From assembly GCF_964019385.1 (NCBI RefSeq), contig NC_088650.1, forward strand, positions 23,872,310 through 23,936,309: DNA of 64,000 nt, written 5' to 3'. Below the pieces are notes generated by a model that saw only the letters and a list, made by a program, of their open reading frames with translations, did not search any database and had not been told where the DNA came from. This stretch comes from Sycon ciliatum. Taxonomy: Eukaryota > Porifera > Calcarea > Leucosolenida > Sycettidae. This document shows, in pieces, positions 4,363 to 23,143 of this stretch (its first letter is position 1; every line of letters begins with the position of its first letter). The position numbers were made by a program, and so were the translations under genes.

Positions 4363-4368
4363 CATGAC
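4363..4368. repeat. Target-site duplication, left copy (CATGAC)
   Basis: These six bases immediately precede the left TIR and are identical to 21720-21725. A 6-bp duplication is the Polinton hallmark. Confidence 0.95.
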
Positions 4369-4616
4369 AGTAGGAAGTAACGAGCGGGTTCTGGGCCAGG
4401 GGGCGCCCGGGTCCCAAAAAATGGGGTATTATTGAAAAATGGGGTACTAATAGTACCCCATTTTTGCGGTGAAAATTATTTTTGGCCCGGTTTTTTTGCG
4501 GATAAAAATATGTGCCAGGGGGTGCCCCTACCTCAAAAAAAAGGGGGTATTATTGAAAATATGTATTGGGGTGTTATGCTCTACCCTAAACAATAAGGTA
4601 ATATGGTGTCATGATT
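4369..4616 (+). repeat. Polinton left terminal inverted repeat
   Basis: This 248-bp repeat pairs with 21473-21719. The outer end begins AGTAGGAAGTAACGAGCGGG. It contains a perfect hairpin: arms 4435-4448 and 4452-4465 with a 3-base centre. An eight-A run here is seven in the right copy. Terminal repeats of protein-primed replicons hold the replication origin; that role is inferred here. Confidence 0.97.
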
Positions 4617-4623
4617 ATGTAAG

Positions 4624-4630
4624 TATAAAA
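4624..4630 (+). promoter_or_regulatory. TATA box for the zinc-ribbon gene
   Basis: TATAAAA lies 8 bp inside the left TIR. A start site 25-30 bp downstream (about 4650-4655) would exclude the ATG at 4644 and favour the ATG at 4686. Confidence 0.65.
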
Positions 4631-4685
4631 GGTGTGTTCTTGAATGATGATCCAGTCAGTTTCAAGTTGTTGTGGTGCAGTGAAA

Positions 4686-5456
4686 ATGGATTCTGAATTT
4701 GAGATCCTGTATGCTTATGTTCGTTCAAAGAAGCAATGTGCGCTGGAGGAAAAGAAGAAGAAGAAGAAGAAGGAGATAGAGGAAAGTGAAGAAGTGTGTT
4801 ATCATCGTGAAGAACAAGTTGAGCATGCTGGTCATAGAGTTTGTTCTCAGTGTGGATTGGTAATGGCGGACATTTACATGCCCGAGGTAAAGTGGAGAGA
4901 GCGTTGTACTAGCATAAAGACCTACACGGATTCCGATCGCATTCAAGGTGTGAATCGTCATCTTGTACATTTTCTCAACAAGATCGACTTCACTTTACCG
5001 CATGCACAGTTTCACCCTGTTCAAGAGGCACTGCAAGCAATGAAGAAGTCCAGCAGCTATAAAAGCATGAACTATGCAATAGCATTATCGTGTATACTTC
5101 ATGAGGATCATGATGCAGTGCGCACACTGCGTTCTTCTTTACCGCGCAGTAATGTATCATGGTTGAGAAGCAGCCGCATTACACAACCTCTTCCATCATG
5201 TTTTCCACTGATGTTTCTTCTACATCTCATGGAACACATCAAGGGTCCTCTGTCCGCTAGACAGCTGAACACTCTGAAAGTTAATTTGTCCTTGATGTCA
5301 CCTGCAGACCTGTCCATGATGCATCTTCTAATAGATGCCTATTGTTGGCATGACTACAGTCTGGATTATTTAGTAGATCACGTGACCTCTCTACCACCTG
5401 ATCTTGCCAACATACTCTATCAATTTACCAAGACTGCAGTACGTCATCAACGTTAG
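4686..5456 (+). CDS. TFIIB-like zinc-ribbon protein of the Polinton
   Basis: A 256-aa protein. After an acidic start (MDSEFEILYAYV) and a lysine run, residues around 37-61 carry a zinc-ribbon pattern: CYH, then H, then CSQCG. This arrangement resembles the N-terminal ribbon of TFIIB-type factors, which recruit RNA polymerase. The C-terminal 170 residues are helical-looking without a motif I recognise; cyclin-like TFIIB repeats are possible but unproven. The ATG at 4686 is preferred because the upstream ATG at 4644 lies less than 20 bp from the TATA box. If the TFIIB reading is right, the product would help transcribe the element's own genes. A DNA-binding protein of another class is the main alternative. 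Confidence 0.6.
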   Translation: MDSEFEILYAYVRSKKQCALEEKKKKKKKEIEESEEVCYHREEQVEHAGHRVCSQCGLVMADIYMPEVKWRERCTSIKTYTDSDRIQGVNRHLVHFLNKIDFTLPHAQFHPVQEALQAMKKSSSYKSMNYAIALSCILHEDHDAVRTLRSSLPRSNVSWLRSSRITQPLPSCFPLMFLLHLMEHIKGPLSARQLNTLKVNLSLMSPADLSMMHLLIDAYCWHDYSLDYLVDHVTSLPPDLANILYQFTKTAVRHQR

Positions 5457-5483
5457 CAATGCGTTGGAGATTTACACTCTCGG

Positions 5484-5537
5484 GAACCTGTTCTGAGACA
5501 TGGTCGAGACACGTTCAGTCATGACCGAGACATGTTC
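5484..5537 (+). promoter_or_regulatory. Cluster of four p53-family-like half-sites
   Basis: Four decamers fit RRRCWWGYYY closely: GAACCTGTTC (5484), AGACATGGTC (5496), AGACACGTTC (5507) and AGACATGTTC (5528). The last is a perfect match; the others have one mismatch. They lie just after the first gene and upstream of the next promoter. Binding is unproven. Confidence 0.35.
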
Positions 5538-5575
5538 CGACAGGTCAAGTGCAAGTCGTGCTGTGATTGGTTAAA

Positions 5576-5700
5576 TCTTATCATCTGCTCACCGTGTCCT
5601 CTGATTGGTTGATTCTTGAACAATTTCACCGTGTTCTCCAAGGTCGTCACCTCCCATAGGATGTTATTTCAAACTCGGCGGCGGTCAAAAGGGTATATAT
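5576..5700 (+). promoter_or_regulatory. Promoter of the 284-aa gene: inverted CCAAT boxes, 26-bp module, TATA
   Basis: ATTGG occurs at 5576-5580 and 5604-5608. A 26-bp module (5627-5652, starting CACCGTGTTCTCC) is identical to 21024-21049. TATATAT lies at 5694-5700. In both places the module ends 42 bp before the TATA box, which argues that it is a real promoter part. Confidence 0.65.
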
Positions 5701-5756
5701 GTGCAAGCACAGTCCTCCATTCACTCACAACTGCCTTTGTTGTTTCGTTGCTCAAG

Positions 5757-5795
<39 letters not shown>

Positions 5796-5827
5796 TGGAT
5801 CTCTCTGGATCTCTCGTGAGTGATATC

Positions 5828-6682
5828 ATGATGGCCACTGATGCTGTTGTTGCTGGTGAAGATGTTGTGGACTGTTTGGGTATTGACCCGTTCGCTATCA
5901 AGACGATAAAGAAACCCGGTCTCTACAAGCGACGTGCTAGCCGTAATCCGAATCTGGAGCCTCTGCCTAAGATCAAGATGCCATCTCCTCGTCCTACCAT
6001 ACTACCAGGTGTCGCCACCATTATTACGGATGGGGCAGCAGAGTGTGTTCAAGCAATGTACAGCAAGACCGCCCACGACTATCATGTTGCTCCTGGCACC
6101 GATTTCTACTATACGCGCGGTGATTTACCGGGCATGCTTGTCAATGGCACGGTATGTGAAGGACGCTTTGGTCAACTTAAGCTGTACGTCCAGGCTTCAC
6201 AAGACGATCTCATTCAATTCTTCCTGAAGACCTCAACACCTTTGAGACGTGCCGTGAGATCTCCACATATCAACAGGATACGGAGTAACATCTTCCCTGC
6301 AATGTACCAAGGGAAGAGTGTGACTGCTTTGTATCTCAAGCCAACCAAGGGTGTGCCCAACTTCCCGATGAACGAAGAGTGTCAGCTCTATCTGCATCTT
6401 TCCACTATATCTTTCAACAGGGAGAAGTGCGAATTCAAGGCATGGCTTTCGGCAATCCCCCTGATGTTTGTAGACTCACGGCTTTGTGAAAGGGATCACG
6501 ACACCGTGCAAGACCTTCCCGAGGCTGAATTGACTCGACTGGTGATTGCATTCCTCAAGAAGTGGAGCACTGCTGACAACGTGACTGCTGACATTGCGTT
6601 TGACACAACGGTGGCGGCGGCAGCGTCTCTCCCTGACACCCTACCGGACAATTCACTGGACTTGAATCTGCTAAATGCTTAG
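5828..6682 (+). CDS. Polinton protein of unknown function (284 aa)
   Basis: I do not recognise this family. The frame is open from 5699, but that ATG overlaps the TATA box, so the tandem ATGs at 5828 and 5831 are the realistic starts. The leader contains a (CT)n tract at about 5760-5792. The product has a short basic segment near residues 27-40 (KKPGLYKRRASRN), no signal peptide and no membrane segment. The middle is rich in aromatic and beta-forming residues. The C-terminus is acidic and alanine-rich. It lies between the zinc-ribbon gene and the fibre gene and has its own TATA promoter. A structural or DNA-binding role is possible, but I would not choose. Confidence 0.75.
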   Translation: MMATDAVVAGEDVVDCLGIDPFAIKTIKKPGLYKRRASRNPNLEPLPKIKMPSPRPTILPGVATIITDGAAECVQAMYSKTAHDYHVAPGTDFYYTRGDLPGMLVNGTVCEGRFGQLKLYVQASQDDLIQFFLKTSTPLRRAVRSPHINRIRSNIFPAMYQGKSVTALYLKPTKGVPNFPMNEECQLYLHLSTISFNREKCEFKAWLSAIPLMFVDSRLCERDHDTVQDLPEAELTRLVIAFLKKWSTADNVTADIAFDTTVAAAASLPDTLPDNSLDLNLLNA

Positions 6683-6893
6683 TCTATCTTACCACATTGA
6701 TTGATCAGAAAGACTTTATATCCTAACCCTTTTTTTTTTCATGCTCTCTTGCTCTCTCTCTCTCTCTTGCTAACATATCATCGCTTCATTAGATTACCAC
6801 TAGCACACATGAGTATCATAATGATTTATTTGAGAAAGAAAATATTTCCTATCATAATTAGAACAGTGTGTGTGTGTGTGTGTGTGTGTGAAG

Positions 6894-8663
6894 ATGGCGT
6901 ACTGGGCTACGCATTTCCATAGGAGTGATGGGGAGGAGACTTCCCTCAAGCACATGCAAAGCATGCAGAATGATATTACCGAAATACAATCAGTTGTGGG
7001 GAACGATGACACCGAAAACACCTTGGTTCATGATGTGGAGAAACTGAAGGAGGAGAAAGCCGATGAGAGCAAAGTGGAAGATGTGGAAAACAGATCTACG
7101 CGCTACACAGATCAAGCCATAGCAGCTGATGAGCTGCACGTGAAAACAGATGGATCCGTGTCCATGGATGCTAACCTCAACATGAACGAGCATTCCATCT
7201 GTAATTTGGCGTACGATGATAGTTCTTTGACATGTGCTGTCCCTGCCGGTTGGGTCAAGAATGAAATCCAACAAGCATCATCGAGATTGCAAACTGGTAT
7301 GGACACTGTGCGCAAGATGAAAGGACCTCGTGGTGATCGGGGATTGGGATGGCTTAGCGGAGGTGGCATGCCACTGAACTCTGTAGGGAGAAATGGTGAC
7401 TTCTATCTCGATGCAACCACGCTCATCGTGTACAAGAAATTCAGCTCGAAATGGAAGGCGTTTGGTCGGCTTCATGGATCAAGAGGTGAAGCTGGTCCAC
7501 GTGGAGAACGTGGATTGATCGGTCCTGAAGGTGAGACTGGACCTAGAGGAGCTGATGGGCAAGGTGGTGAACGCGGTCAAAAAGGTGATCAAGGAATACC
7601 TGGTCCAGAAGGTCCCAGAGGTGAAGTTGGACCACGTGGAGAACGTGGATTGGTCGGGCCTGAAGGTGAGATTGGACCTAGAGGAGAAGATGGGCAAGAC
7701 GGCCCACAAGGTGAACGTGGTGTGCAAGGTGATCAAGGAACCACAGGTCCCATGGGTCCCCAAGGAACCATCGGTCCAACCGGTCCTCCAGGAAACAGAG
7801 GTCCCGTGGGTCTCCAAGGAATCATCGGCCCCATAGGTCCTCAAGGAACCAGAGGCCCCATGGGTCCGCAATCAAATCAGAACCTATCCGATCCGTTTCA
7901 TCTACTACCTCTCATTCGGAGAAACGCCTACCTCTACATATACTCTAATCCTAGCAGATTTGAATCCGTCACCAGGGTGAGCAGAAACAGATACAGAGGG
8001 ATAAATCTCGTTGACATGAAGGACAAGAGAATCAACGTGAACAGCATCGACATGTTCCGAGACGATCACTTCTACCTCAACATTACACAACCCAGCGAAG
8101 TTTCCATTAGAGAACGATTCGTCAATCTGTTTCACGACAACATGTCTTTTGCAATGTTCCAAGTAATTCAAGTGGACGCACCTGACCCTAGAAACATGGC
8201 ATTGAAGGCATTCGATATCGATACTGTCGGAAATTTCAGCTTGGATAGTTTGTACGTGTTGTTCACTGCCACCCACATAAGCGGCAACTACTTCACGCGT
8301 CCCGGCCATTCATCATTCAACATACCCGTTTCGTCTGTAGTCAGCCAATTATCGGCGGCTTTGGATAAACCTGTGTCGAGTATGACGGATCTCTTGGGTA
8401 CAAAGTGTGTCATAAGTTACGCTCGGAATTCAGAAGGCCTATTCACTCTATACGTAAACTCCATTTTGATACATTCCAACTTAGACACTGTCCCATTTTC
8501 CAGGACCAATGGAATCGAAGATTGCAATTATAGCATTGGTGGTACTCAATTCTTCAACGGCACTTCATCAAAGTTGTTCTGTCATTTGCACTTTGCAGAG
8601 AGTTTATCTTCTCATACAATCCAGCGCATCCACACAGAACTCATGGCACACTACGATATATGA
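6894..8663 (+). CDS. Collagen-like fibre/spike protein with lectin-like tip
   Basis: A 589-aa protein starting at AAGATGG, just after a (TG)n tract. Residues 1-80 look coiled. Residues about 85-110 (DGSVSMDANLNMNEHSICN) resemble the repeat seen near the base of phage and virus tail fibres. A Gly-X-Y run of 44 uninterrupted triplets occupies residues 195-326 (7476-7871). The last 260 residues form a globular domain whose end (LFTLYVNSILI, then YSIGGTQFF) resembles laminin-G/concanavalin-type lectin folds. The order base, collagen shaft, lectin head suggests a trimeric host-binding fibre on the particle. Family knowledge: collagen-like proteins occur in large DNA viruses. The receptor role is inferred. 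Confidence 0.8.
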   Translation: MAYWATHFHRSDGEETSLKHMQSMQNDITEIQSVVGNDDTENTLVHDVEKLKEEKADESKVEDVENRSTRYTDQAIAADELHVKTDGSVSMDANLNMNEHSICNLAYDDSSLTCAVPAGWVKNEIQQASSRLQTGMDTVRKMKGPRGDRGLGWLSGGGMPLNSVGRNGDFYLDATTLIVYKKFSSKWKAFGRLHGSRGEAGPRGERGLIGPEGETGPRGADGQGGERGQKGDQGIPGPEGPRGEVGPRGERGLVGPEGEIGPRGEDGQDGPQGERGVQGDQGTTGPMGPQGTIGPTGPPGNRGPVGLQGIIGPIGPQGTRGPMGPQSNQNLSDPFHLLPLIRRNAYLYIYSNPSRFESVTRVSRNRYRGINLVDMKDKRINVNSIDMFRDDHFYLNITQPSEVSIRERFVNLFHDNMSFAMFQVIQVDAPDPRNMALKAFDIDTVGNFSLDSLYVLFTATHISGNYFTRPGHSSFNIPVSSVVSQLSAALDKPVSSMTDLLGTKCVISYARNSEGLFTLYVNSILIHSNLDTVPFSRTNGIEDCNYSIGGTQFFNGTSSKLFCHLHFAESLSSHTIQRIHTELMAHYDI

Positions 8664-8732
8664 AAGTGCTACTTTGATTGTACATAATATATAGCACACA
8701 GGCTACACTACATTCTTGAGATGAAAATGAAA

Positions 8733-8738
8733 AATAAA
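8733..8738 (+). terminator. Poly(A) signal of the fibre gene
   Basis: AATAAA lies 70 bp after the fibre stop codon and before the penton start. A TATATAG at 8689-8695 could serve the next gene. Confidence 0.6.
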
Positions 8739-8772
8739 ACCTATCTATAGTGAGTGTCATCACAACACCAGA

Positions 8773-9522
8773 ATGTCTGTGATATTGACAGTGGCGAACA
8801 ACACGTCGGGCGTGAGCAGGGGATTGCACAAACCGAACTTTACTCTAAATGTGAAGGAGCTCGATACGCGTGATAAAGTCCTGCATGTTGAATCGGCTCA
8901 GTTTGAAGTACACTTTGAGAACATAGACGAGGCAACGAACAAACTCTATGTGGTACATGGTGTAGAAGAAGAAGAAGAAGAAGAGGATAGACTTTCCATC
9001 AAGACGGGAACATACAGCGATGTAGACGATTTGGCGTCTATTATCAATGCCACTCTGAAACGAGCAGGACACGGAGACATTGTGTTTTCCTACTCTCGTC
9101 ACACCAGCCGTATAAGTGTCTCGGTACCCAGGAATAAACGGTGCTTGTTGAAGAAGGACTCACCCGCATTGGTGCTGGGTGTGGGCACTATTCTCAAGCC
9201 ATACACGATCGAGGGATCTCACACGTTCCCGTTCGCTGTGGATCTGACGAAAGGCAGAAGACTTGTCCTGCTCTACACCGACCTCATTGGACCTGCTGTG
9301 GAGTACGAAGACAATACTGATTCGAGGGTGCTGAAGACTTTTCTTATTCAAACCCTCAACGGTTTGAATAACTACGTGTTCGGGAAAGAAGACAAACGAC
9401 TGCTGCTTCCACACGAAAACGTGACTAGCATTTCGTTCTGGTTGAAATTCAACACCGGTGAACACATTACTTCCGGATATCCCGTCTACCTTGATCTTCG
9501 GATCACCAACACAACTACTTAG
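8773..9522 (+). CDS. Candidate minor capsid (penton) protein
   Basis: A 249-aa protein of a size fitting a single jelly-roll penton. Residues about 78-91 (GTYSDVDDLASIIN) match the 'G-x-Y-S-x-x-D-L-x-x-x-I-N' segment common in Polinton penton proteins. Many alternating beta-type segments follow. A Glu run at residues 65-71 comes from a GAA microsatellite. The stop codon TAG is immediately followed by the ATG of the membrane protein. Pentons form the fivefold vertices and usually hold the fibre, which here is the gene just upstream. Homology was judged by eye; a structure search would decide. Confidence 0.65.
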   Translation: MSVILTVANNTSGVSRGLHKPNFTLNVKELDTRDKVLHVESAQFEVHFENIDEATNKLYVVHGVEEEEEEEDRLSIKTGTYSDVDDLASIINATLKRAGHGDIVFSYSRHTSRISVSVPRNKRCLLKKDSPALVLGVGTILKPYTIEGSHTFPFAVDLTKGRRLVLLYTDLIGPAVEYEDNTDSRVLKTFLIQTLNGLNNYVFGKEDKRLLLPHENVTSISFWLKFNTGEHITSGYPVYLDLRITNTTT

Positions 9523-10128
9523 ATGGATCTTCCAGATGTTCGTGTCCGTCACGTGCGTGACATGGTGGAGGATATAGCAAAACGAAAGAAATTGGAGAGC
9601 GAAAAGGTGCGTTGCCGGGAGAAGTACGTAATTTACAACACTGCAATCTTGTCCTTTCTCATACTCATTCAAACCATTCTCAACATTCTTCAAGGGAGTG
9701 GTGTTGTATCTGGAGAACATCGCATTCGAATCATCGCCATCAGTAGCACGATCATCGGTGTGATCATGGCATGCATTGGTAAACACGTTCTCGACACCAA
9801 ACGTCAGCTTGTCAAGTGTATTGAACAACTGCAGCAGATGGAGAGAGCTGAAGACTCGTTCATGTTGGAATTGGGCATTACTCTGGAAGATGGGAAGCTC
9901 ACTAACGAGGAGCATCAACGATTGATATCGATGATGAACGACTTTCGCAAGACACTGGATATTGGATCTTTAAAAAAAATTCACCCCTATTATAATGTGA
10001 CTCGCAAGAATGGCACAGGAGATATACTCACCACAAGCTCCGGAGTCCTTCACGGGACTCCTGACCAACACGAAGATCGTTCAGAAGAACATCCTCGACA
10101 GGACGGAGAAGAAACTCTCGTTGCTTGA
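9523..10128 (+). CDS. Two-helix membrane protein
   Basis: A 201-aa protein. A charged N-terminus is followed by two hydrophobic helices at residues 36-56 and 68-90, separated by a short polar turn. A helical, coiled-coil-like segment follows at 91-150 and then a polar tail. The last 119 bp overlap the start of the major capsid gene in a different frame. The hairpin topology suggests a virion-membrane, entry or exit protein, but I recognise no family. The overlapping tail (rich in G, E, D, H) may be weakly constrained. Confidence 0.65.
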   Translation: MDLPDVRVRHVRDMVEDIAKRKKLESEKVRCREKYVIYNTAILSFLILIQTILNILQGSGVVSGEHRIRIIAISSTIIGVIMACIGKHVLDTKRQLVKCIEQLQQMERAEDSFMLELGITLEDGKLTNEEHQRLISMMNDFRKTLDIGSLKKIHPYYNVTRKNGTGDILTTSSGVLHGTPDQHEDRSEEHPRQDGEETLVA

Positions 10129-11611
10129 GGGTAGACGCGGAGTACGACTCTTTTCCACAGCAGATCGATCACCACCATCCCTGAACAATGAACTAGACAT
10201 CTCGTCGCCGAATTTCATTGCTCTGGGGGAGAGCTATTTCATCGTGAAAATGCGCTATAGTGTCAAAAACAATCTCAATAACCAGCCTGGAGACTACACG
10301 CGATGGGTGTGCACCACGTCACCAGCCTTTTCGTGGTTCAAGAACATTCGAGTGGAGATCAACGGAACAGAGGTCACGCAATCGAGTAAAGTTGCCGACA
10401 TGCAAATGGTTCAGCATATCCTCAGTCTAATGGAAAGCAGCAGCGAACGCCTTCAGTACGTGGACTCGGATCTCTACGGTCTACAGAAACTGGATCCGCA
10501 AAGAGCATTGAGAGGTGTGGATTTATCGCCCTATCAACTTGGTGTGAAGCGTAAGCATGGCTATGCCTTCGAAACAAACGCTGCAAACGCTAATGCAGCA
10601 CAAGCACCGGATTTCGTCGATGATTTCACACTCAGGCGTGCACCCACCGTCGAGCTTGTCACCAACGAAGGCTTCTCCAACACGGTTCAGGAAAATGCAC
10701 TTCGTGCAGCTGTTGGACGGTTTCAGTACAAGCTGAGACCCTTCCTACCGTTTTTCAATCAGGACGATGCTTGGTTACCCCCGGGTACACAGGTGAAGCT
10801 TCGCTTTGATCTGCCACAATCCGAGCTTTCCAGATACATCATGCTTAGCGATCAAGGCGGTGGTGCCAACAGTGCTCTGAGCGTCGGTGATATTGAGATC
10901 GATCTACTCCAATTGGACTTTGTGTACACTACCTATCGCATGGAACCCAATCTCACCGATCGTGTACGCCTTCCCAAACAACTCTATTTCCACACGTGGT
11001 GCCCTCGTCTCATACAAAAGAGCATTTCAGATGATGCTGGTACACTGGAACTGCTTCACAATGCGGACATTCCACGCAGGATGATCCTGTTCTTCACAGA
11101 TTTGACTCATGGTACACAGCCAGCATTGGCTGGAGGTCAAGCATCGCATTCTTCGAACAGACTGGCCATGATTCATGCAAATCTCAGTCAACTTCGTGTC
11201 ACTGTCAACGACCAGATGCTCTTTGACAACCCGCTCAAGTTCCAGTGGGATGTGAGTCGTAATACTGAAGGGCAATACTTCTACGATTACAACAAATCCT
11301 CCTACCTGCGTGGCTACAATCTGGTTCAAGACTTTTTCGGCAAGACGTATGGAACGCAAATCCCCATCACCGCTGCAGATTACTGCAATCACTACTTTAT
11401 GGTGCCTATCAACTTGAATCTGGATCGGACCACAGACAATCCAAGATCGAGAGGAAATCTGTCCATCGACTATCAATTTAGCGACGTGACAAACGCCCCC
11501 GTGAGGAGACCTAGCGAAAATGGTGCCTCGATCAAAGTCAACCTTCTCTGCATGGACAAGTACTTGTACACCATGAGCAAAGATGAAGGTATCAAAGCCG
11601 AAGTTGTATGA
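10010..11611 (+). CDS. Major capsid protein (double jelly-roll)
   Basis: A 533-aa protein with the length and position of the Polinton major capsid protein. The C-terminal third contains DNPRSRGNLSIDYQFSD, which parallels the 'P-x-G-x-x-N-x-S' segment of double jelly-roll capsid proteins of adenovirus-like and large DNA viruses. Upstream, NNQPGDYTRWVCTT and WFKNIRVEINGTEV suit the first jelly roll. It assembles as trimeric hexon-like capsomers. The start at 10010 lies inside the membrane-protein gene. A weak TATTATAAT at about 9989 is too close to be a convincing TATA box. The order penton, membrane protein, capsid protein, precursor, ATPase forms a morphogenesis block. Confidence 0.8.
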   Translation: MAQEIYSPQAPESFTGLLTNTKIVQKNILDRTEKKLSLLEGRRGVRLFSTADRSPPSLNNELDISSPNFIALGESYFIVKMRYSVKNNLNNQPGDYTRWVCTTSPAFSWFKNIRVEINGTEVTQSSKVADMQMVQHILSLMESSSERLQYVDSDLYGLQKLDPQRALRGVDLSPYQLGVKRKHGYAFETNAANANAAQAPDFVDDFTLRRAPTVELVTNEGFSNTVQENALRAAVGRFQYKLRPFLPFFNQDDAWLPPGTQVKLRFDLPQSELSRYIMLSDQGGGANSALSVGDIEIDLLQLDFVYTTYRMEPNLTDRVRLPKQLYFHTWCPRLIQKSISDDAGTLELLHNADIPRRMILFFTDLTHGTQPALAGGQASHSSNRLAMIHANLSQLRVTVNDQMLFDNPLKFQWDVSRNTEGQYFYDYNKSSYLRGYNLVQDFFGKTYGTQIPITAADYCNHYFMVPINLNLDRTTDNPRSRGNLSIDYQFSDVTNAPVRRPSENGASIKVNLLCMDKYLYTMSKDEGIKAEVV

Positions 11612-11642
11612 ATTAATTCCGACCTAGTAGTAAAAGGGCATC

Positions 11643-12428
11643 ATGGAAGGTGGTGACCTGGAGACCAGACATCGTGTCTACGGTGGTGATTTGAAAACAT
11701 CGAGTCGACAACACGGTGGATTCTTCTGGAAAAAGAGCTTCTGGAAAAACCTAATCGGTGCTGGACCGGATGAGATGGAAAAGCAGATGGCGGAACCCAC
11801 GACAAAACAAGATGCAATGCAACGCGGTGGACTTGGACCCCTGGCTGCCATGGCAGGAATGACACTTCTTCCCATGCTTTTGGGGAGAGGAGAGTCCGGA
11901 GACATTGTGGAAACGCAAATGAAAACAGCTTACAACCCTGCCATGCACCGAGGAGGTCTAGCCATTCCACCAGGATTAGCCGCCAAGGCCATACCACTCC
12001 TGACGAACCTGGCTGCTCCCTTGGCCATGGGTACCATGGCATCACTGGGTGACAACGTAATGGATAAAATATTCGGCAGAGGAGTAAGGAAGGGAAGCTC
12101 AGCAGGTGCCATGAAGCGCACTAAAAGTCGTCGTCGTCGGCATGCACCGAAGAAGATTCGGCAACGAGCATCTCGAAAAACCAAGAAACCAGCTCGTCAA
12201 GTTCGCTCCAAAGGCCGCAGGGCACGAGGAATAAAGAAACAAGGAAGGGCCTTGTTCAAAAAACTAGGACATCGTGCCCTCGACGAAGCTTCATCGTTCC
12301 TGTCTGCACCTCGTAGATCCCTAACCCGTCCTGAAACTCCATTTGCTCAAAAAATTCGACAGAACATTAACAGTGCAGGACCGTCTTCTATGAGTTCCGC
12401 TCACATCGGTCCATCCTACAACATCTGA
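11643..12428 (+). CDS. Basic virion precursor with several protease cleavage sites
   Basis: A 261-aa protein. The N-terminal half is glycine-rich and partly hydrophobic (APLAMGTMASLG). Residues 148-215 are strongly basic (KSRRRRHAPKK, RKTKKPARQ), as in DNA-condensing core proteins. Four places fit adenain-type cleavage rules ((M/I/L)XGX-G or (M/I/L)XGG-X): MEGG/D at 1-5, LIGA/G at 37-41, LLGR/G at 79-83 and IFGR/G at 143-147. Adenovirus pVI, pVII and pX are processed this way. By analogy this could release a membrane-active peptide and a protamine-like core protein. It starts 31 bp after the capsid gene and ends 2 bp before the ATPase start codon. Confidence 0.7.
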   Translation: MEGGDLETRHRVYGGDLKTSSRQHGGFFWKKSFWKNLIGAGPDEMEKQMAEPTTKQDAMQRGGLGPLAAMAGMTLLPMLLGRGESGDIVETQMKTAYNPAMHRGGLAIPPGLAAKAIPLLTNLAAPLAMGTMASLGDNVMDKIFGRGVRKGSSAGAMKRTKSRRRRHAPKKIRQRASRKTKKPARQVRSKGRRARGIKKQGRALFKKLGHRALDEASSFLSAPRRSLTRPETPFAQKIRQNINSAGPSSMSSAHIGPSYNI

Positions 12429-12430
12429 TC

Positions 12431-13183
12431 ATGGACTTTATCTCGCTCCTTGGACAGGAAATCGGGAGGAAGAAAAAGACTAGTCCCGTAAGGAACGACG
12501 ATGTTCCGACCACGGCCACTGCTCGACACGGGCTGCACATTCCTGGTCTTCAGTTCGAGTCTAAGGATTGGTTCACGGAAATCATTCCTGCTCTGAAATC
12601 CTGGGGTCAAAACGTATTGTTTCTGGGACAGAGCAACATGGGTAAATCCTACTTTCTCATCAAGCTCCTGAAACGTGTGCAACCTGAGCGTATAGTTGTC
12701 ATCTCCAACACGCCGGCCGATCAGTATCGTCTCCCAAGCCTCAAATCCTTCAAGCATTACAGCACCATGCCCGAGTGTATCGAAGACATGGATCTCCAGC
12801 CTAACACCTATGTGATCATTGATGACATCAGAGTGATGGGTTTGAAGCACGGCAGCCAAAGAGAGTGTCTCTACAAGTTCTTCACCATGTACAGTCATCA
12901 TCATAAGTTGAACGTGTTCTTTCTCTCTCAGAGCTTTGATAACATTAAGGACATGAAGATCAATGCAAACTTTATGTATCTATTTCGCTTCACTGATAAA
13001 AGCAATATCAAGCGTTATCTCAATACTCTGTTTGGTGGTGTGTGCACGAAGTCATCCATTATCTTTAGATTGTATGAGAAGTTATTGGCGGTGTGTCGCA
13101 GACCTATCCTAACCATTGATTGCTCTTCTAATCAGTACTACACGTATTGCGAAGACACTGCATTAAAGGTGACTTTTGAATAA
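12431..13183 (+). CDS. DNA-packaging ATPase (FtsK/HerA type)
   Basis: A 250-aa protein. The Walker A motif is GQSNMGKS (residues 66-73), Walker B is TYVIIDD (126-132), and a following strand NVFFLSQS (161-168) supplies the sensor. This fits the packaging ATPases of Polintons, virophages and related DNA viruses, which pump the genome into the capsid. The size is typical for Polintons. The stop codon TAA overlaps an AATAAA poly(A) signal (13179-13184). Confidence 0.9.
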   Translation: MDFISLLGQEIGRKKKTSPVRNDDVPTTATARHGLHIPGLQFESKDWFTEIIPALKSWGQNVLFLGQSNMGKSYFLIKLLKRVQPERIVVISNTPADQYRLPSLKSFKHYSTMPECIEDMDLQPNTYVIIDDIRVMGLKHGSQRECLYKFFTMYSHHHKLNVFFLSQSFDNIKDMKINANFMYLFRFTDKSNIKRYLNTLFGGVCTKSSIIFRLYEKLLAVCRRPILTIDCSSNQYYTYCEDTALKVTFE

Positions 13184-13184
13184 A
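13179..13184 (+). terminator. Poly(A) signal overlapping the ATPase stop codon
   Basis: AATAAA shares its TAA with the stop codon. It would end the capsid-block transcripts before the 12-bp repeat array. Confidence 0.6.
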
Positions 13185-13204
13185 AACCTCGTTGATGTGC
13201 GTGT

Positions 13205-13288
13205 TTAGCCGAAAAGTTAGCCGAAAAGTTAGCCGAAAAGTTAGCCGAAAAGTTAGCCGAAAAGTTAGCCGAAAAGTTAGCCGAAACA
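13205..13288 (+). repeat. 12-bp tandem array, seven copies
   Basis: TTAGCCGAAAAG repeats at 13205, 13217, 13229, 13241, 13253, 13265 and 13277 almost without change. The array fills the gap between the ATPase poly(A) signal and the next gene. It may be a regulatory array or a recent slippage product. Confidence 0.95.
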
Positions 13289-13317
13289 TTGAAAAAAAAT
13301 TCCAATCATGAATAAGA

Positions 13318-14379
13318 ATGGAGCATCTTACGGTGAAATTCTCAAATGGGCTACCGAGCAGTATACAGAGGGTGGGGTCCAGAAAGGGATCCTTCTCGAT
13401 ACCCAAGCGTAAAAGGTTGCAAACCTTGCAGTTTATGTCGAAACATCCTCAACACATCCTCAAGAAGAGAGTAAATTCGTGGGAAGTTCTCGGTATACCA
13501 CCACTCATGCGGCAAAAAGGAGGTAATAACTACAATACCTACTTGAAAAGCGTCAAGAAAGTTCTTTCCCAAGTGCCAGATCACAGTTTGAGCACCTCCA
13601 CCCTGTTGGAACTGCAAGCTGATCCGCGAGTAAAGCGTCTATATGACACCCACTTCAAAAACAATCCCGATCACATCAGTTACCCGTCTGTGAGAAATGT
13701 GATTGCATCCAACATACTCAACTATGATTCCACTACCGATCAAGTTCGCGATTCCGTTGCAGATGTCAGGAAGAAGAGAAAGGCACCTTTAACATCAGTG
13801 CCTTTCAATCTATTACAAGACCACGAATTTGACCGATGGATCCTACAAATCCTGGACAGTTTCCTCCGACATACAAATATACCGGCAACCTTTTTGAAGA
13901 GCAACTACTTCACAAGCCGATCACAACTGCTGCAACTCTACGATGAAGATCGACTGAGGTTCAGGAGTCGGGTGGAAGCGGCTGCGGATGCCCTGAAGAC
14001 GCAGACGATGAACGACTACACTACTCTGGTCAACGAGACGAATCGCATCTACATGTCCAGGTACCCATTTGCAACCATAGCGGGTGCGGTGGGAATCCAC
14101 AAACATGTCGATGGATTCCTTCGATCAGAACGAAAGATTCATGAACTAGCCACCCTAGTGCTAGCTGTACCAGGATCGCAGCTCAAGTTTCAAGATCTCA
14201 ACGATATGACTTCTACGTATGGTAGAACAACTGAAGCAAAATTGATCCATCCCGAGCATTTCATGATCAGAGCACAAAAGGTGATGGTGGACGATGCATC
14301 ATTCATTCAAGAGGTTCTGAAGGATAAAAGCAGGATCACTCGTATCATCAAGGATATCCTGAGTGGACGTTCAATGTGA
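13318..14379 (+). CDS. Polinton protein of unknown function (353 aa)
   Basis: I do not recognise this family. It is mostly alpha-helical by composition, with a basic N-terminal third (residues 1-60, including KRKRL and KKRVNSW) and a second basic patch near 149 (VRKKRKAPL). No membrane segment or catalytic motif is seen. An ATG ten bases upstream (13308) opens a different frame of 34 codons ending at 13410, so translation must skip it or the true N-terminus differs. The gene lies between ATPase and protease-integrase, where Polintons often carry virion proteins. It ends 35 bp before the next start codon. Confidence 0.7.
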   Translation: MEHLTVKFSNGLPSSIQRVGSRKGSFSIPKRKRLQTLQFMSKHPQHILKKRVNSWEVLGIPPLMRQKGGNNYNTYLKSVKKVLSQVPDHSLSTSTLLELQADPRVKRLYDTHFKNNPDHISYPSVRNVIASNILNYDSTTDQVRDSVADVRKKRKAPLTSVPFNLLQDHEFDRWILQILDSFLRHTNIPATFLKSNYFTSRSQLLQLYDEDRLRFRSRVEAAADALKTQTMNDYTTLVNETNRIYMSRYPFATIAGAVGIHKHVDGFLRSERKIHELATLVLAVPGSQLKFQDLNDMTSTYGRTTEAKLIHPEHFMIRAQKVMVDDASFIQEVLKDKSRITRIIKDILSGRSM

Positions 14380-14414
14380 TCACGTGCGCGAAAATTTTCA
14401 GGCTATGATCAAGA

Positions 14415-15908
14415 ATGGACTACCCTCTCAGCAGTGCCGACATCAAAGGAAGATTGAATGGTGTTGGAGGGTTCGTGGGGTGTACAAGTTACGACCTCTT
14501 ACCACCCTTGAACAATGGAGACTTTTGTATCGTCAACACCGACAACGTTCTACCGGTGTACGATGCACCGGAAGGTGGACATCATTGGTTGACCGTGTGT
14601 CGCGAGCAAAACGTGATCCTGGTTTTTGACAGTTTCGGACGCAGTCTATACACTATGGAGCAAGATTACACTGAACCTGCACTGTGCGATTTCTTTAAAG
14701 AAGCCTATGCAGACTGTAAGATCATCACCAACACCCAAGCCGTTCAAGACAGAAGCACAGCAGTATGTGGATGGTATGCCATATTGATGGGAAAGCTATT
14801 TTCCAAATATGGTCTGGATGAAGCACTTCGAACTTTCCGAAGAGTCTTCGATGAGGATGAAAAGCTGGAAAACGATCAACTGGTTCTCAGTTTAGGTGTC
14901 TTGCGAGGTGGTGGAGCCTTGTGGGATACGAAAGTGCAAAAAGCACTTCATGATGGAAGACAGAAGAAGAAGTCGCAGTCCACACCATTCCACACGCAAC
15001 TGGCTAACGAATTGCACAAACCCAGACGAGTGCATTTCAAAAGACGCAAGGTGAAGAGCAGGTCTGTGGATCACATCTGGAGTGCCGATCTAGTGGATAT
15101 GCAACGGTTTGCCCGAAGCAACAAGAACTACAAATTCCTGCTGACCGTCATCGATCTGTACAGTCGCTATGCCTGGGCAGTACCCCTGAAAACCAAAACT
15201 GGCTCTGCTGTCAGGGATGCATTCGACATGATCCTGAAAACATCGAACAGGGTACCACAAAAACTATGGGTAGACGAAGGCAAGGAGTTCTACAATGCAA
15301 CAATGAAGCAATGGGTCAAGGATCACAACATCATCATGTACAGCACCCACAACGAAGGAAAAGCCGTGGTGGTGGAACGCTTCAATAGAACACTGAAAGG
15401 CAGAATGTGGCGCCATTTCACGGAGAAAGCTACGACACAGTATCTTGACGTCCTTCCTCAGCTTATGGTCAAGTACAACAGCTCGAAACATCGCAGTATC
15501 GGCATGAGTCCCACGAAAGCTTCTCTTGATGGAAAACCAAAAGATGCAGACGTACACTCGAAGCAATCACCAGCAAAATTCAAAGTGGGTGATGATGTGC
15601 GTTTGGCTGTAGCTAAACGTCATTTCGAGAAAGGGTACACGCCCAACTGGACAGAGGAAGTGTTCGTGGTAAACGATGTCCTACCCACTGTACCCCACAC
15701 CTATCGTGTTCAAGACCTGATGGGAGAAGTCATTCAAGGACAGTTCTATGGAGCTGAGCTACAACATGCCAGACACACAGGATTGAGATTCGATAAGGTG
15801 TTGAAATACAACAAGAACAGTCGGCTCGTCAAATGGAGGGGTTATCAAGACGAAAAATTCCATACCTGGTTAACAAAGAAGGATGTGAATGATCTCAAAA
15901 AGTATTAG
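14415..15908 (+). CDS. Fused adenain-like cysteine protease, DDE integrase and chromodomain
   Basis: A single 497-aa frame. Residues 1-165 are an adenovirus-type protease: His57 in GGHHW, Asp72 in FDSFG, Gln111 and Cys118 in CGWY. The Gln-Cys spacing of seven equals that of adenain. Residues 215-370 are a retroviral-type integrase core with Asp225 (SADLVD), Asp287 (WVDEGKEF) and Glu321 (ERFNRTLKGR). Residues 459-492 are a chromodomain (LVKWRGY), which may steer insertion to marked chromatin. At the junction, LRGG/G (163-167) fits the protease's own cleavage rule, so the two enzymes could separate after translation. In Polintons these are normally two genes. No stop codon or splice site was seen between them. 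Confidence 0.9.
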   Translation: MDYPLSSADIKGRLNGVGGFVGCTSYDLLPPLNNGDFCIVNTDNVLPVYDAPEGGHHWLTVCREQNVILVFDSFGRSLYTMEQDYTEPALCDFFKEAYADCKIITNTQAVQDRSTAVCGWYAILMGKLFSKYGLDEALRTFRRVFDEDEKLENDQLVLSLGVLRGGGALWDTKVQKALHDGRQKKKSQSTPFHTQLANELHKPRRVHFKRRKVKSRSVDHIWSADLVDMQRFARSNKNYKFLLTVIDLYSRYAWAVPLKTKTGSAVRDAFDMILKTSNRVPQKLWVDEGKEFYNATMKQWVKDHNIIMYSTHNEGKAVVVERFNRTLKGRMWRHFTEKATTQYLDVLPQLMVKYNSSKHRSIGMSPTKASLDGKPKDADVHSKQSPAKFKVGDDVRLAVAKRHFEKGYTPNWTEEVFVVNDVLPTVPHTYRVQDLMGEVIQGQFYGAELQHARHTGLRFDKVLKYNKNSRLVKWRGYQDEKFHTWLTKKDVNDLKKY

Positions 15909-16028
15909 CATTTCATATGTACAATGTAGCTCATGCTTTGGATTAACGTGAATATTATGAATCGCATAGTATTTACAATGTATTTCATGAGAAGATATGA
16001 CATATGCTCTAGTATGTGTGGAAATCCC

Positions 16029-19000
16029 TCAGTGCTTTGGAATATCCTTGTGTCCGAATGCCAGGGTGTTGATACCATCCTCCAGAATGTAACGCTTACT
16101 GTCGAATCCACTGAGGGCAATCTTGCGTAGCTCCTCTCCGTGAATGCAATGTCGTCGACTTCGAAGAACATTCATTGTTCTCTTCAGCTGAGACTCCTCG
16201 ACGAGACATGTTCGATAATCATCGACGGTTATGGTGTTTTTCAACACGCTTCTCTGCACACCTTTGGCACGCTTGCCATTGTCGTCGTTGTCTTCACAGC
16301 GGTATGCGTACATCTTGCTCCGCAAACCAATGAACTCCTTGATGGGTTTGCCACCTAGTTCGTCCTTGAACTTCCCTACCACCTTCTTGTTGACCGTGCT
16401 GTACAGGTGGTGGGATGGTGAATAGTTGGATGTGTCATAGGCTGTTATGTTGTTTGACATATCGGTGTACAGATCATCCGTTTGAATATGTACGATCAGA
16501 CTATCAGTATCAGTGTAGAGCAAACGTACATTTTGTCCATAGCGGGGTAGGAGAACTTCATAGTAAAAGGAATACATCAAGTGCTTCGACAGATCGAGGA
16601 TGGCTGTACCCACATAAATGGGTTTATTGAGAGTCACCTTTGTCCTGGCAAACTCGATTGCTATCAGATCGTTCTCAAAGGCTACACTGCGGATGTACGA
16701 AGGTTTGTTGATGCTTTTCTGGAGACGTGGTTTTTCATCCTGTTCACGAATGAGCTTGATGTTTACTCTGTTTCGAACGTTTTCCATGGTCTTGCCATAT
16801 ACAGCATTGTTCATCAACTACGATAAACAGGCATACAAAGAAAAGACAAGAAAAACAACAATAAGAAAACTGTTATCTTCAGGTCATTCACACTTCCAGT
16901 ACATACTAGATCCCACACTATCGCTAAATACACACACACACACACACATGATGTGGAGTACCCACCTTATAGAAGTCTTTCTCGAAATCAGAAGTTGATA
17001 GCTTTCTCAGGTCAGTATTAGTGTCGATGTATGGCTTCATCCATGGGTGTTGTGTGAAGGAGAGCACACGATGCACATCTGTAATCTCCACACCCAAGGA
17101 CACATACTGCTGCAAGTTTCTGTAGTGCAGAACATAGTGCTCTTTCGGTAGTAGATTTGGCACCAGTTTCTTCGCTTCCAAACCGCTCACCTACAAGAGT
17201 ACAGTATAGATATACACAAACCTTAGAAGATTAATACAAGCATATCCACCAGATAGACCATGACTTACCATTAGTTTCTCTGCCATGTGGGTCTGATATG
17301 GAGAAAGCATATCTCGTGTCACCTTCATCTGCTCAGGAGCCAACGGATAATCATTCATCATGTCATGCACACCATCTGGAATCCTTAAATCGCACTCCAC
17401 CATGTATCCCGTCGAAGAGTCCATTGGATGATCGAGTACCGTCTCCAGAAGATCATCCGTCACTGCTTCAAAGCAGAAGTCCGACACGGGCAAGGGTTGA
17501 GACATGGCCCATCCATATAGATTGTTCGCATCTAAATATTGGATGAAGCTTGACGGCTCGTCTGGATTGTATTCCGATAGATATCTGTTGTTGGCGGTGG
17601 CGTGTCTAGCGGACACCATGCTTATGCCACCTCTTTTGCCATGCTCAATGAAGTTGAACATGTCAATGTCGGAAATGAGATGAAGGGACACCTTCGTCAT
17701 TTTCAGCAGCGAATCCCAGGCAAATCCCGGTAAGGTGAGGTAATTAGCGGGATCCAATCCATAGGTTGCGTGAGCAGTTCTTCTGAAGTTTTCGAAAACG
17801 TCAGCCAACAGCAGCACATCAGTCTCCAGGTAGAGGTCGTGATAGTCTCCTAGATCTTCACAGTCAAACGCAGTCCATACTGTTTGTGCATAGGCATAGT
17901 CTTCATCACTGATACCCTAGGGAATAGAAAATGTACACCAAAAAGAAAAACAAATCAACGAACTTATTTTAGTAGTTCGCCCACACAATCAATTATTTAG
18001 TATGAAGCTGCAGGAAGCGTTCAAACACATTTTGGCTTATTTTAGTACTTCGAAGTAAGATGGTGAAAAAAGAAAGAGAGAAAGATCTACTATATCTGTC
18101 ACACTACTCACCGTGTTCGTTAGCGTTGAGTGGAATGCATCCTTGGGTGGTAGACGCGTTTCTTCGAATTGGTCGTACGACCCCATATATTCACACGGGT
18201 AGACACCCTTTCGTGTCAACAGTTTGCGTTCATCCTCGTCTGGAAATCGTGCGGATAGAAGGGCGAATGCATCTGGTGGTGTAGCCGAAACCAACCGGTC
18301 TAGGGAGGTGTTCAAGAATGCCAGGCTGTCGATGAACTGGAACTGTCTCCATCCGAATGTGACATATTTTTCACTGTTGATGGGAATCACGTTGATAGCA
18401 CCGAGACGCTGTCTGAGAAGAAGAAAGAAAAAGAGGAGACACAGTTTTAAGGTGCAGCTGTAAAGATGAATATCAATCATATAAACGTGAATATGAGTAC
18501 CAACATAGTAATGATCTTCCTTCTTAGAAAAACATCATGATCCACGCACACACACACACACACACACACCACGCGTATGTAACGTACCCGTTCTTGTCCT
18601 TTCTTGTTCACATACGTAATCTCATCAATGGACGTTCTCCCAATGGCAGATATGATGTGATGAGAATCGTATCCCTTCAAGTTATGAAAGATCACAGGAA
18701 TCTTAATCTTTAATGGCTCAATCCGCATGTTCAGGTTACAATGGTTGTGTGCTGCACCACGATAAGCACCGGTGATGTGACAGTGGTCACGTACACGATC
18801 GCTACCCAACGCTTCACCACAGATCCAACAGGAGACTACCGTTTCAAATTCACGTTGCTGACTTTCTGAAATGATCATTTGACCAGCATTACATGCTAGA
18901 AGCTCATCACGGATAGTCTCCTCCTCTTGCTCAAGTGACAGCAGAAAACAGAACATAGAATCTTCTCCACGGTAGAAGAAACGGTTCGTGACGACGCCAT

Positions 19001-19128
19001 CAGATCGTACTACAATGTACGAACAGGAACAGGCTACATGCTTGTTCTTTTGGAATGTCGAATGACCGATTTTATTGTCAGCGGACAGAGGTTCTATGAA
19101 AGCCTCACAATCGGCATAGATCACCTGC

Positions 19129-19159
<31 letters not shown>

Positions 19160-20471
19160 CAAGAGAGAGAAGTAGGAATAGCAGCAGGGACAACACCGAG
19201 TAAAACAGCAGAAAAGACAGATAGAGAATTAGGAATAGCTGCAGAGACAACACCGAGTAAAACAGCAGAAAGGTGAACACTCAGAGTCAAGAAACATGTG
19301 CAGTAAAGAAAGAAAAAAAAAAAACAGACCACAGTGTGTTCACCTTGATTAAGTGTTCTACTTACAAATGGGGCTTGAAGCTGCTTGTTCACATTCCTGA
19401 ACATCACTCTATCGCCAGCCTTTGGCATCTCCACCGTAGCTTCAGGATGTTCACTGCAGTACATCATATGATTATTCAATGCCTTCTCCGTGACGTGTGT
19501 TGAGAGACATCTGAAGCAGACAAAATGTGCTCGACGTGCTCCAGTAGCAACAAGACGACTGAATGACTTTATCCACACCCAGTGCTGCACCTCCACGTCA
19601 TTGCGTTCGTCTTGGATGAGCAATACATTGATGGCGGTCTGCGGTTGCTGAGAAATTCTTAACGGATATATGACTTTCTCTTCATATCCGAAGACGTTGA
19701 TGTAAAGACCGTCGTTCAGTCTTTCGATGACTGGTATGTCTTCCAGTTTTGCTGGAAACTCGATGCCGCTCACATCCACAGTATCCGCATGTTCTACGTA
19801 CGACGATTGACGACATGGATGAGACTTGTCTGCCGAAAATTTAGCAGCCAGTATTGACCATCTAAAGTACGGATGACATAAGACATGGACAGGCGGCATA
19901 CAGTTCAATCCATACACCGTATCACCACACTGAAACCCCACTGCTATACTTACAGTAAACACTTGTTGTCAGTGTTCTGCACGTTAACAATGGCCTTCTT
20001 CGACTTCAACTCCGGTGGCAAGGGGATGTACGAACTTCCTCCAAGTACACAGTAGCGTGACATTTCGATGTGTAAACAGGAAATCCGTTCAACTACCCAA
20101 CCTGATCCATGACGAACGAAATCATCAAGACGAGCGTTGATCTGAGCTATCATCCTACTGAGAAGGTCCCTCAGCTCCATGGTGTTGAGCACCAGCGTTG
20201 TACTCGATCGGAAGAAGAATGTGTTGGAAACCATTTGTCCTGTAGCAGGATTCAGCTTCTGCATCACCACCTGAACTACCAAAGAACACTTGTACTGGCC
20301 CCATTGCTCAATATTCTCTTCAAGAAGCAGCTCCAGCGACGGTAGAACATGAGAGAAAAACTTTAGTACATCTGCAAACTCTTGATCAGGACAATAACTA
20401 AAGAATTGCAACAGATCAGATGATCTCACTACATCAAAAGACTGACGAGGTTTCTTCCGAAGGGGTTCCAT
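16029..20471 (-). CDS. Protein-primed family B DNA polymerase, seven exons
   Basis: Exons on the minus strand: 20471-19954, 19861-19366, 19124-18588, 18408-18112, 17916-17269, 17190-16966 and 16817-16029. All six introns (78-241 bp) are GT-AG. The summed length is 3,510 nt, exactly 1,170 codons with stop, and every junction restores a conserved polymerase motif. The exonuclease box (YADCEA) spans the start of exon 3. A zinc-binding motif of endonuclease VII type (CWIC, then DHCHITG) and FHNLKGYDSH follow. Exon 5 has DANNLYGWAM (motif A), exon 7 NNAVYGKTMEN (motif B) and YTDTDS (motif C). It replicates the element by protein priming. The start at 20471 fits the TATA box at 20529-20538; an ATG at 20504 would lie at the cap site. 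Confidence 0.93.
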
Positions 20472-20528
20472 CCTGAGCAGGGGTGGTGGCGGACAACCAC
20501 ACAATGGCTTGACAAGGTACCGAGGATC

Positions 20529-20762
20529 TATTTTTATAGGGTTTTCGTAATAGTTGAATTCGGAATAACTGGTTGTTTTTCAATTAACCAATCCACTCAT
20601 CTCCCGCTGGAAACAATTAACCACTTACCGCACTTCCCGCTGAAAACATGTGACCAATTAGCGCACTTCCCGCTGAAATCACGTTCATCCTTTTATCGCG
20701 CATTGACCCATGTTCCACACTTCACAGTGAAATCAGTGCTGCAATGATGTACTGTGACGTCA
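20529..20762. promoter_or_regulatory. Divergent control region of the polymerase: TATA, E2F-like repeats, CRE
   Basis: On the minus strand TATAAAAATA (20538-20529) lies 67 bp before the polymerase ATG. Upstream, a unit of about 33 bp is repeated three times plus one decayed copy, each carrying TCTCCCGC or CTTCCCGC followed by TGAAA. Cores are at 20600-20607, 20633-20640 and 20666-20673. CTTCCCGC resembles E2F sites, and CCAAT occurs in two copies. A perfect palindromic CRE, TGACGTCA, lies at 20755-20762. The mix resembles the adenovirus E2 early promoter. Factor binding is inferred. Confidence 0.6.
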
Positions 20763-21095
20763 ATGCATGGATGCATGATCTGTGCATCTGAGGTCAAGAT
20801 GAATCCGGTATTCCAGCAGCTAAAAGTTCGAGAAAGAATTGTTGTATGTCGAAAAGAATTATACGAGAGGAAAGCTAGAAAAATTCTACACCTCATGGAC
20901 CTTTCGATTACGGACATAGATGGAAAACTAATTGACTTATGTCAATGGAAAGATTCCAAACCCGAACCAAAAAAGACACGGCATGGCGCGAGCAACGTTT
21001 TGGTTTTTGGCGCGCACCGTGTTCACCGTGTTCTCCAAGGTCGTCACCTTCCCGGAGGCGGGACCCGGCGGGACGGGACTTGGCGGGACCTATAA
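20763..21095 (+). CDS. Small Polinton protein of unknown function (about 110 aa)
   Basis: The frame runs from ATG 20763, with a second good start at 20799 (MNPVFQQLKV). The first 75 residues look like a real protein, charged and helical (VRERIVVCRKELYERKAR). The last 30 residues are low-complexity Gly/Arg/His, encoded by GC-rich DNA that also holds an E2F-like site, the 26-bp promoter module and a TATA box. The tail may therefore not be true coding sequence. It is divergent from the polymerase and shares its control region. No family is recognised. Confidence 0.5.
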   Translation: MHGCMICASEVKMNPVFQQLKVRERIVVCRKELYERKARKILHLMDLSITDIDGKLIDLCQWKDSKPEPKKTRHGASNVLVFGAHRVHRVLQGRHLPGGGTRRDGTWRDL

Positions 21096-21097
21096 AA
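21004..21097 (+). promoter_or_regulatory. Right-end promoter: E2F-like site, 26-bp module, TATA
   Basis: TTTTTGGCGCGC at 21004-21015 contains the consensus E2F site TTTGGCGC. The 26-bp module at 21024-21049 is identical to 5627-5652. TATAAAA follows at 21091-21097, at the same 42-bp distance as in the left promoter. It points rightward toward the TIR. Confidence 0.65.
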
Positions 21098-21119
21098 CCT
21101 GATATAATTTCATTTTTGG

Positions 21120-21275
21120 TTCACAATTCATTTTTGAGTCCATTGGATGATCGAGTACCGTCTCCAGAATTTCTCTCTCTATCAGATCAAAGATGTCGGC
21201 CTGGTCAACCTCCGAACCATATGTAGAGAAGTTCTATTTATTTTCTTGTAGTAATAAAGATGAATTAACCGGAAA
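21120..21275 (+). ncRNA. Candidate short transcript with a 34-nt antisense segment to polymerase
   Basis: Between the TATA box at 21091 and an AATAAA at 21253-21258 there is room for an RNA of about 150 nt. It contains 34 nt (21136-21169) identical to plus-strand 17417-17450. That stretch is exon 5 of the minus-strand polymerase gene, so the RNA would be perfectly complementary to polymerase mRNA. A 28-codon open frame starts at 21193 (MSAWSTSEPYVEKF). A splice-acceptor-like TTATTTTCTTGTAG also ends at 21251. It may be a regulatory antisense RNA, a small peptide gene, or the stump of a lost gene. Transcript ends are estimated. Confidence 0.4.
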
Positions 21276-21472
21276 ATGATCCGAAAAATTGAAATTACAA
21301 GTCAAAATACTGCAAAACTATGAGTTCTGATTAATATAAAATTGGAAAAAGTGAGATAACATTGACATTTGAAATAGTAATATTTTAGACATCGGAATGC
21401 AATATTATGATGTAGGGCAGGACATATTACCCACCCCTAAAAATCAAAATTAATGATACATGCAGAATTCCA

Positions 21473-21719
21473 AATCATGACACCATATTACCTTATTGTT
21501 TAGGGTAGAGCATAACACCCCAATACATATTTTCAATAATACCCCCTTTTTTTGAGGTAGGGGCACCCCCTGGCACATATTTTTATCCGCAAAAAAACCG
21601 GGCCAAAAATAATTTTCACCGCAAAAATGGGGTACTATTAGTACCCCATTTTTCAATAATACCCCATTTTTTGGGACCCGGGCGCCCCCTGGCCCAGAAC
21701 CCGCTCGTTACTTCCTACT
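21473..21719 (-). repeat. Polinton right terminal inverted repeat
   Basis: A 247-bp inverted partner of 4369-4616. It is nearly identical, with one A-tract base fewer, and ends in ACT at 21719. Confidence 0.97.
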
Positions 21720-21725
21720 CATGAC
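21720..21725. repeat. Target-site duplication, right copy (CATGAC)
   Basis: Identical to 4363-4368 and directly abuts the right TIR. Confidence 0.95.
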
Positions 21726-22664: not shown

Positions 22665-23135
22665 TAGGGCTGAAACAATTATACCGATTACTCGCATATC
22701 GATCGTTAAGAGTGTAATCGATAATCGTTAGTGTTCAAAATGAGTGCTAACGATTTTTCATGCATGCATATCAGTGATAGCATTCTAGCCCTTGCAATTC
22801 ATCCGATAGTGAATACGAGTGCAATCATGTACTTTCAAGAGCAATACAATTGATGTATGGCTTTGAAAGAGATTGGAAGAGAAGACTTTGTCTTATTGGT
22901 GCATTTCCTGGAGAGGTTGGAGATAAGAGCAGTTGCCAGATGGTGATGGCAAGATTCAGATATCAACAGTGCGGTGCCACAAATTTCGAACATAGCAAAG
23001 GTATCATGGAAGTTCTTCCTAAACTGGTGTTCGAGGTACATGGGTAGAGCCAACAAGAATCGATAAAACCAATAAATCGATCGTTAATGATATTGGTTGA
23101 TCGTTAGGAGTTATTGAATTATCGTTTCAGCCCTA
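22665..23135 (+). mobile_element. Non-autonomous hAT-type element, copy 1
   Basis: The ends are TAGGGCTGAAAC and its complement. An exact 8-bp duplication, TTCAAAAC, lies at 22657-22664 and 23136-23143. Eight-base duplications are typical of hAT transposons. The element is 471 bp with no intact transposase. It is related in inverted orientation to 29814-30346. Confidence 0.9.
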
Positions 23136-23143
23136 TTCAAAAC

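Follow-up and report, generated by a model that had tools for sequence, protein, structure and literature searches.

What might explain a stretch of 34 nt near the right end of a Polinton that exactly repeats part of the element's own polymerase gene, in antisense orientation? The original prediction placed this stretch in a mini transcription unit and proposed that its RNA serves as a self-encoded brake on polymerase expression or as a seed for host small RNAs, with a recombination scar as the main alternative. Judging from the sequence of the window (the whole 64-kb stretch of DNA that was analysed), the 34 nt are probably a short templated duplication, of the kind known as filler, and this candidate explanation is preferred below. 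The probabilities worded for this and for all other readings are our own judgement.

The Polinton and its polymerase gene

The element that carries the match is an intact Polinton (Table 1), with the 6-bp target duplication and the long terminal inverted repeats (TIRs) typical of its class. The left and right TIRs, each about 247 bp, are separated by no substitutions and by one 1-nt indel, and because they are nearly identical the insertion must be recent. For the same reason, perfect identity over 34 nt elsewhere in the element needs no selection to explain it.

Table 1. Features of the Polinton and of its right end, with positions in the 64-kb window
Feature	Position	Strand	Remarks
Polinton, intact	4369..21719		17,351 bp; flanked by the target duplication CATGAC (4363-4368, 21720-21725)
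Left TIR	4369..4616	+	pairs with right TIR, 21473..21719
28-nt exact patch, gene 2 side	5625..5652	+	upstream of gene 2; TATA at 5694
Gene 2	5828..6682	+	284 aa; nothing in Pfam up to E 10
Source of the 34 nt	17417..17450	-	inside polymerase exon
Open frame at right end	20763..21095	+	110 aa; runs into TATA box; five database relatives listed
28-nt exact patch, right end	21022..21049	+	identical to 5625-5652; ends 86 nt upstream of 34-nt patch
25-nt core of patch	21024-21048	+	ends 42 nt before TATA
TATAAA of putative mini-unit	21091..21096	+	motif in sequence
34-nt copy	21136..21169	+	exact; rightward reading is antisense to polymerase mRNA
AATAAA	21253..21258	+	near chance by itself
Right TIR	21473..21719	-	single 1-nt indel against left TIR

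Several other genes of the element can be recognized to varying degrees. Pfam finds an integrase of the retroviral type (PF00665, E 2.8e-12) in the open reading frame at 14415-15908 (+), and the same frame holds a weak match to an adenovirus-type protease (PF00770, E 0.00066; 19.9 bits, with the cut-off at 21.3), such that it would encode a fused protease-integrase. When a capsid protein and a packaging ATPase were sought, the frames at 10010-11611 and 12431-13183 gave no Pfam match at E 0.001. A protein with collagen-like repeats is encoded at 6870-8663 (+; PF01391, E 1.6e-18), and tandem 12-bp units, TTAGCCGAAAAG, occupy positions 13205-13288 between two of the genes. The frame at 4644-5456 (+) encodes a TFIIB-like protein, whose zinc ribbon match (PF08271, E 0.0021) lies below its cut-off and for which the structure prediction was of too low quality (mean pLDDT 45) to establish the fold. 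Its relatives are P0126 (99% identity; 15 member sequences), P0127 (50%; 31 member sequences) and P0128 (43%; one member sequence).

Outside the Polinton, the window includes retroelement-like sequence as two long inverted copies (407-2638 and 37156-39416), and the frame at 1869-2735 reads SLYTNIP, which we take to be a motif of Penelope-like reverse transcriptases. To the right of the Polinton, the two arms of an inverted repeat (22665-23142 and 29807-30346), separated by about 6.7 kb, may mark the termini of a further mobile element.

For the polymerase gene, which is read from the minus strand, a 208-aa piece of the product matches 4,994 proteins, and PF03175, the domain of family B polymerases, is present in many of the 120 that are listed; the four pieces scanned return no polymerase match in Pfam. 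Among those 120 of 4,994 matches, no sister exceeds 63% identity, in contrast to the listed TFIIB-like sister protein that is 99% identical. The polymerase TATA (20533, minus strand) is preceded upstream by three 33-bp repeats at 20581-20679, which include TTCCCGC in two of the three, a motif that resembles an E2F site and that would tie the polymerase to S phase.

Splice signals read by eye (an acceptor near 17917 and a donor, GTAAGT, near 17268) suggest that the exon holding the 34 nt is the fifth of the polymerase gene, as had been proposed. Because related polymerases encode an alignable, coding stretch at 17417-17450, the polymerase gene is the source and positions 21136-21169 are the copy. 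The 34 nt correspond to residues 123-134 of the 208-aa piece, between W116 and G137. An alignment of 22 sequences (the piece from the window and 21 of the 120 listed matches) has no invariant or nearly invariant column at these residues and, to judge from that alignment, this part of the polymerase is variable.

The 34-nt match and its flanks

The exact antisense identity between 21136-21169 and 17417-17450 can be confirmed directly, and so can the view that chance is unlikely to have produced it. Allowing up to 3 mismatches, the 34-mer occurs at only 2 places in the window and at none in 100 shuffles, and the longest self-match in each of 30 simulated elements was 13-18 nt in 29 cases, the exception being 26 nt. 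The TIRs aside, no other exact self-match of the element that is not of low complexity is as long, and the next is 28 nt. The copy had been described as far from its source; the two sites are 3,719 bp apart from start to start, and both lie within the same 17.4-kb element. The patch is found in the stretch of approximately 960 bp that separates the right TIR from the polymerase start. On the minus strand of the mini-unit, a 47-aa open frame (21090-21233) translates the 34 nt in the polymerase frame, with the residues LETVLDHPMDS, but this frame is probably due to chance.

Searches beyond the window yielded no exact copy of the 34-mer in viral_contigs or genome_contigs. Two viral relatives, L001 and L002, have no self-match within the matched polymerase stretch among the 40 longest of each after removal of low-complexity matches, although these are remote, partial loci with 43 and 47% identity and are hardly a test for polymerase-matching patches.

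The match ends abruptly on both sides. Local alignment of the 80 nt on each side of each copy gave scores of 6 and 6, against a null median of 6 and a 95% point of 8, and a longer, diverged polymerase fragment was sought around the patch and is absent. An exact copy whose flanks share no homology is the pattern used to recognize fillers. How unusual such isolation is can be gauged from the rest of the window, where exact pairs of at least 28 nt that are not of low complexity and have both flanks at chance level number three: the 34-nt match, a 28-nt promoter patch described below, and a direct 29-nt pair outside the Polinton (42191-42219 and 46074-46102). The last serves as a control, with a spacing of 3,883 bp compared with the 3,719 bp noted above. 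At 90% identity this pair is 41 nt long, so that it may be what remains of a short repeat and no scar. The promoter patch, for its part, is equally isolated and exact yet probably functional. Thus, isolation alone is suggestive of a scar and is no proof of one.

A probable promoter element shared with gene 2

The 28-nt patch at the right end is also found upstream of gene 2, and at both sites the core of the patch is followed by a TATA box at a spacing of 42 nt, with different DNA in between. The TATA and AATAAA motifs on which the mini transcription unit was founded are indeed present, but each is near chance when taken alone: when 20500-21472 was shuffled 2000 times, 56% of the shuffles had a TATAAA on the plus strand, and of 2000 shuffled stretches of 200 nt, 17% had an AATAAA. 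The TATA box at 21091 gains support because the 28-nt patch precedes it with equal spacing and because of the database relative P0122. Exact copies of the promoter element were absent from viral_contigs and genome_contigs.

Relatives of the right-end frame extend these observations. These are P0121 (98% identity over 89% of the frame; five member sequences), P0122 (81% over 72%), P0123 (72% over 56%), P0124 (74% over 54%) and P0125 (88% over 24%, E 0.0014), and viral_contigs yielded no relative of either this frame or the TFIIB-like protein. The alignment with P0121 reaches 21092, the edge of the TATA box, and that with P0122 reaches 21099, where the residues GTYKT fit a TATA box whose letters a protein leaves unproven. 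The promoter core is read as FTVFSKVVT in P0122, P0123 and P0124, and the tails of P0123 and P0124 differ from the gene 2 promoter by 10 mismatches in 24, versus 12 for the right end, a margin too small to choose between the two. As read through these protein alignments, the promoter region up to the TATA box is common to the relatives, and the patch is probably a functional promoter element that is kin to the promoter of gene 2.

One relative is rearranged. In P0125, the right-end segment is fused to the TFIIB-like gene (the protein aligns to 5230-5415 and 20808-20916), which raised the idea that the right end is a moved segment of the left end. This was rejected since P0126, P0127 and P0128 keep the C-terminus of the TFIIB-like protein, which makes an internal deletion the simpler account, and we infer that P0125 would be a copy lacking approximately 15 kb of internal sequence.

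Alternative explanations and known systems

A first alternative is the proposed brake. In its fuller form, the gene-2-type promoter at 21022-21096 would drive a putative RNA of about 160 nt that lowers polymerase expression when gene 2 is on, and variants of the idea include a switch, temporal or copy-number control, or a feed into host small-RNA pathways. The promoter element and TATA spacing that the mini-unit has in common with gene 2, the retention of the promoter region in relatives, and the correct antisense orientation of the 34 nt in the 5' part of the putative RNA all speak in its favor. Pairing of this RNA with the polymerase exon is predicted at -111.8 kcal/mol, stronger than the -68.5 to -80.6 kcal/mol for four other genes, but this strength is uninformative because any perfect 34-nt match pairs well. 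The RNA itself looks unremarkable: its fold is no better than those of shuffled sequences (z 0.04, with 94 of 200 shuffles at least as stable) and it matches no Rfam family, by which a hairpin precursor of small RNAs or a member of a known RNA family was rejected. Furthermore, the 34-nt patch is predicted to be about as open as the remainder of the RNA (0.42 vs 0.43), the AATAAA is near chance, the target lies in a variable stretch of the polymerase, and identity is expected without selection in so young an element. Among the papers listed on Polintons and antisense, titles and opening parts of abstracts describe no antisense self-brake in a Polinton. Thus, the promoter half of the proposed mini transcription unit gains support from the patch, its spacing and the relatives, while the functional half, whether brake or small-RNA seed, gains none from fold, Rfam, target or the identity in so young an element, and we consider a brake very improbable.

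Somewhat more credit, although it is still improbable, can be given to a remnant of a larger recombination, in which the 34 nt would be left over from a longer polymerase segment or from an exchange between Polinton copies. Rearranged related proteins such as P0125 speak for events of this type, but no further polymerase similarity surrounds the patch, and decay is unlikely to have spared 34 perfect bases with sharp ends. A DNA site acting in cis, for protein binding or replication, might lie near the right end and also within the polymerase gene. The position just past a TATA box is one where such sites could be found, and the promoter patch demonstrates that exact sharing of non-coding sequence occurs in this Polinton; however, the window offers no third copy within 3 mismatches and the polymerase stretch varies among relatives, which leaves a site of this sort even less probable than a brake. 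The least probable reading is an assembly or sequencing artefact, given that a mis-join would change the context on one side instead of placing 34 nt between two stretches, and that the TIRs and target duplication are intact.

A scar, the alternative named in the original prediction, fits better than its favored reading, considering the abrupt ends, the chance-level flanks and the similar isolated pair elsewhere. For a templated duplication, the presumed occasion and timing of the template switch would be either the repair of a break near the right end or the copying of Polinton DNA. The growing strand would have switched for a moment to the polymerase gene, 3.7 kb away, copied 34 nt from it and then returned. 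The patch would have landed downstream of a promoter like that of gene 2, such that any RNA made there would carry the 34 nt by accident and presumably without function.

The two main readings carry different lessons. A brake, if true, would mean that a eukaryotic DNA transposon controls its own polymerase by antisense RNA. A scar would be a small, clean sign of template switching in a young virus-like transposon, and it would warn that mobile DNA can acquire antisense matches of about 30 nt accidentally. Separately, the promoter element that gene 2 shares with the right end, and that relatives retain, offers a handle on the regulation of Polinton genes.

Known systems provide useful points of comparison. 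A brake would resemble the yeast retrotransposon Ty1 in that an element restrains itself through an internal transcript, but copy-number control of Ty1 relies on a Gag-derived protein (PMC7055915, PMC4599808), and the Polinton would have at most a short putative antisense RNA. For a templated duplication, parallels are offered by DNA transposons that capture nearby fillers during gap repair, as described for Pack-TIRs (PMC8277862). These take outside DNA, unlike the Polinton piece, which comes from the element's own gene and is only 34 nt long, but in both cases a DNA transposon would use template switching to gain a copy of sequence nearby. Similarly, short templated insertions are given as about 2-35 bp (PMC11724301). 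The donors of such fillers adjoin the break, whereas the donor of the putative Polinton insertion is 3.7 kb off, a distance that suits the comparison less well. Even so, the 34-nt patch resembles the fillers left by end joining or template switching (PMC11724301) in being a short exact copy with abrupt ends and a size within their range.
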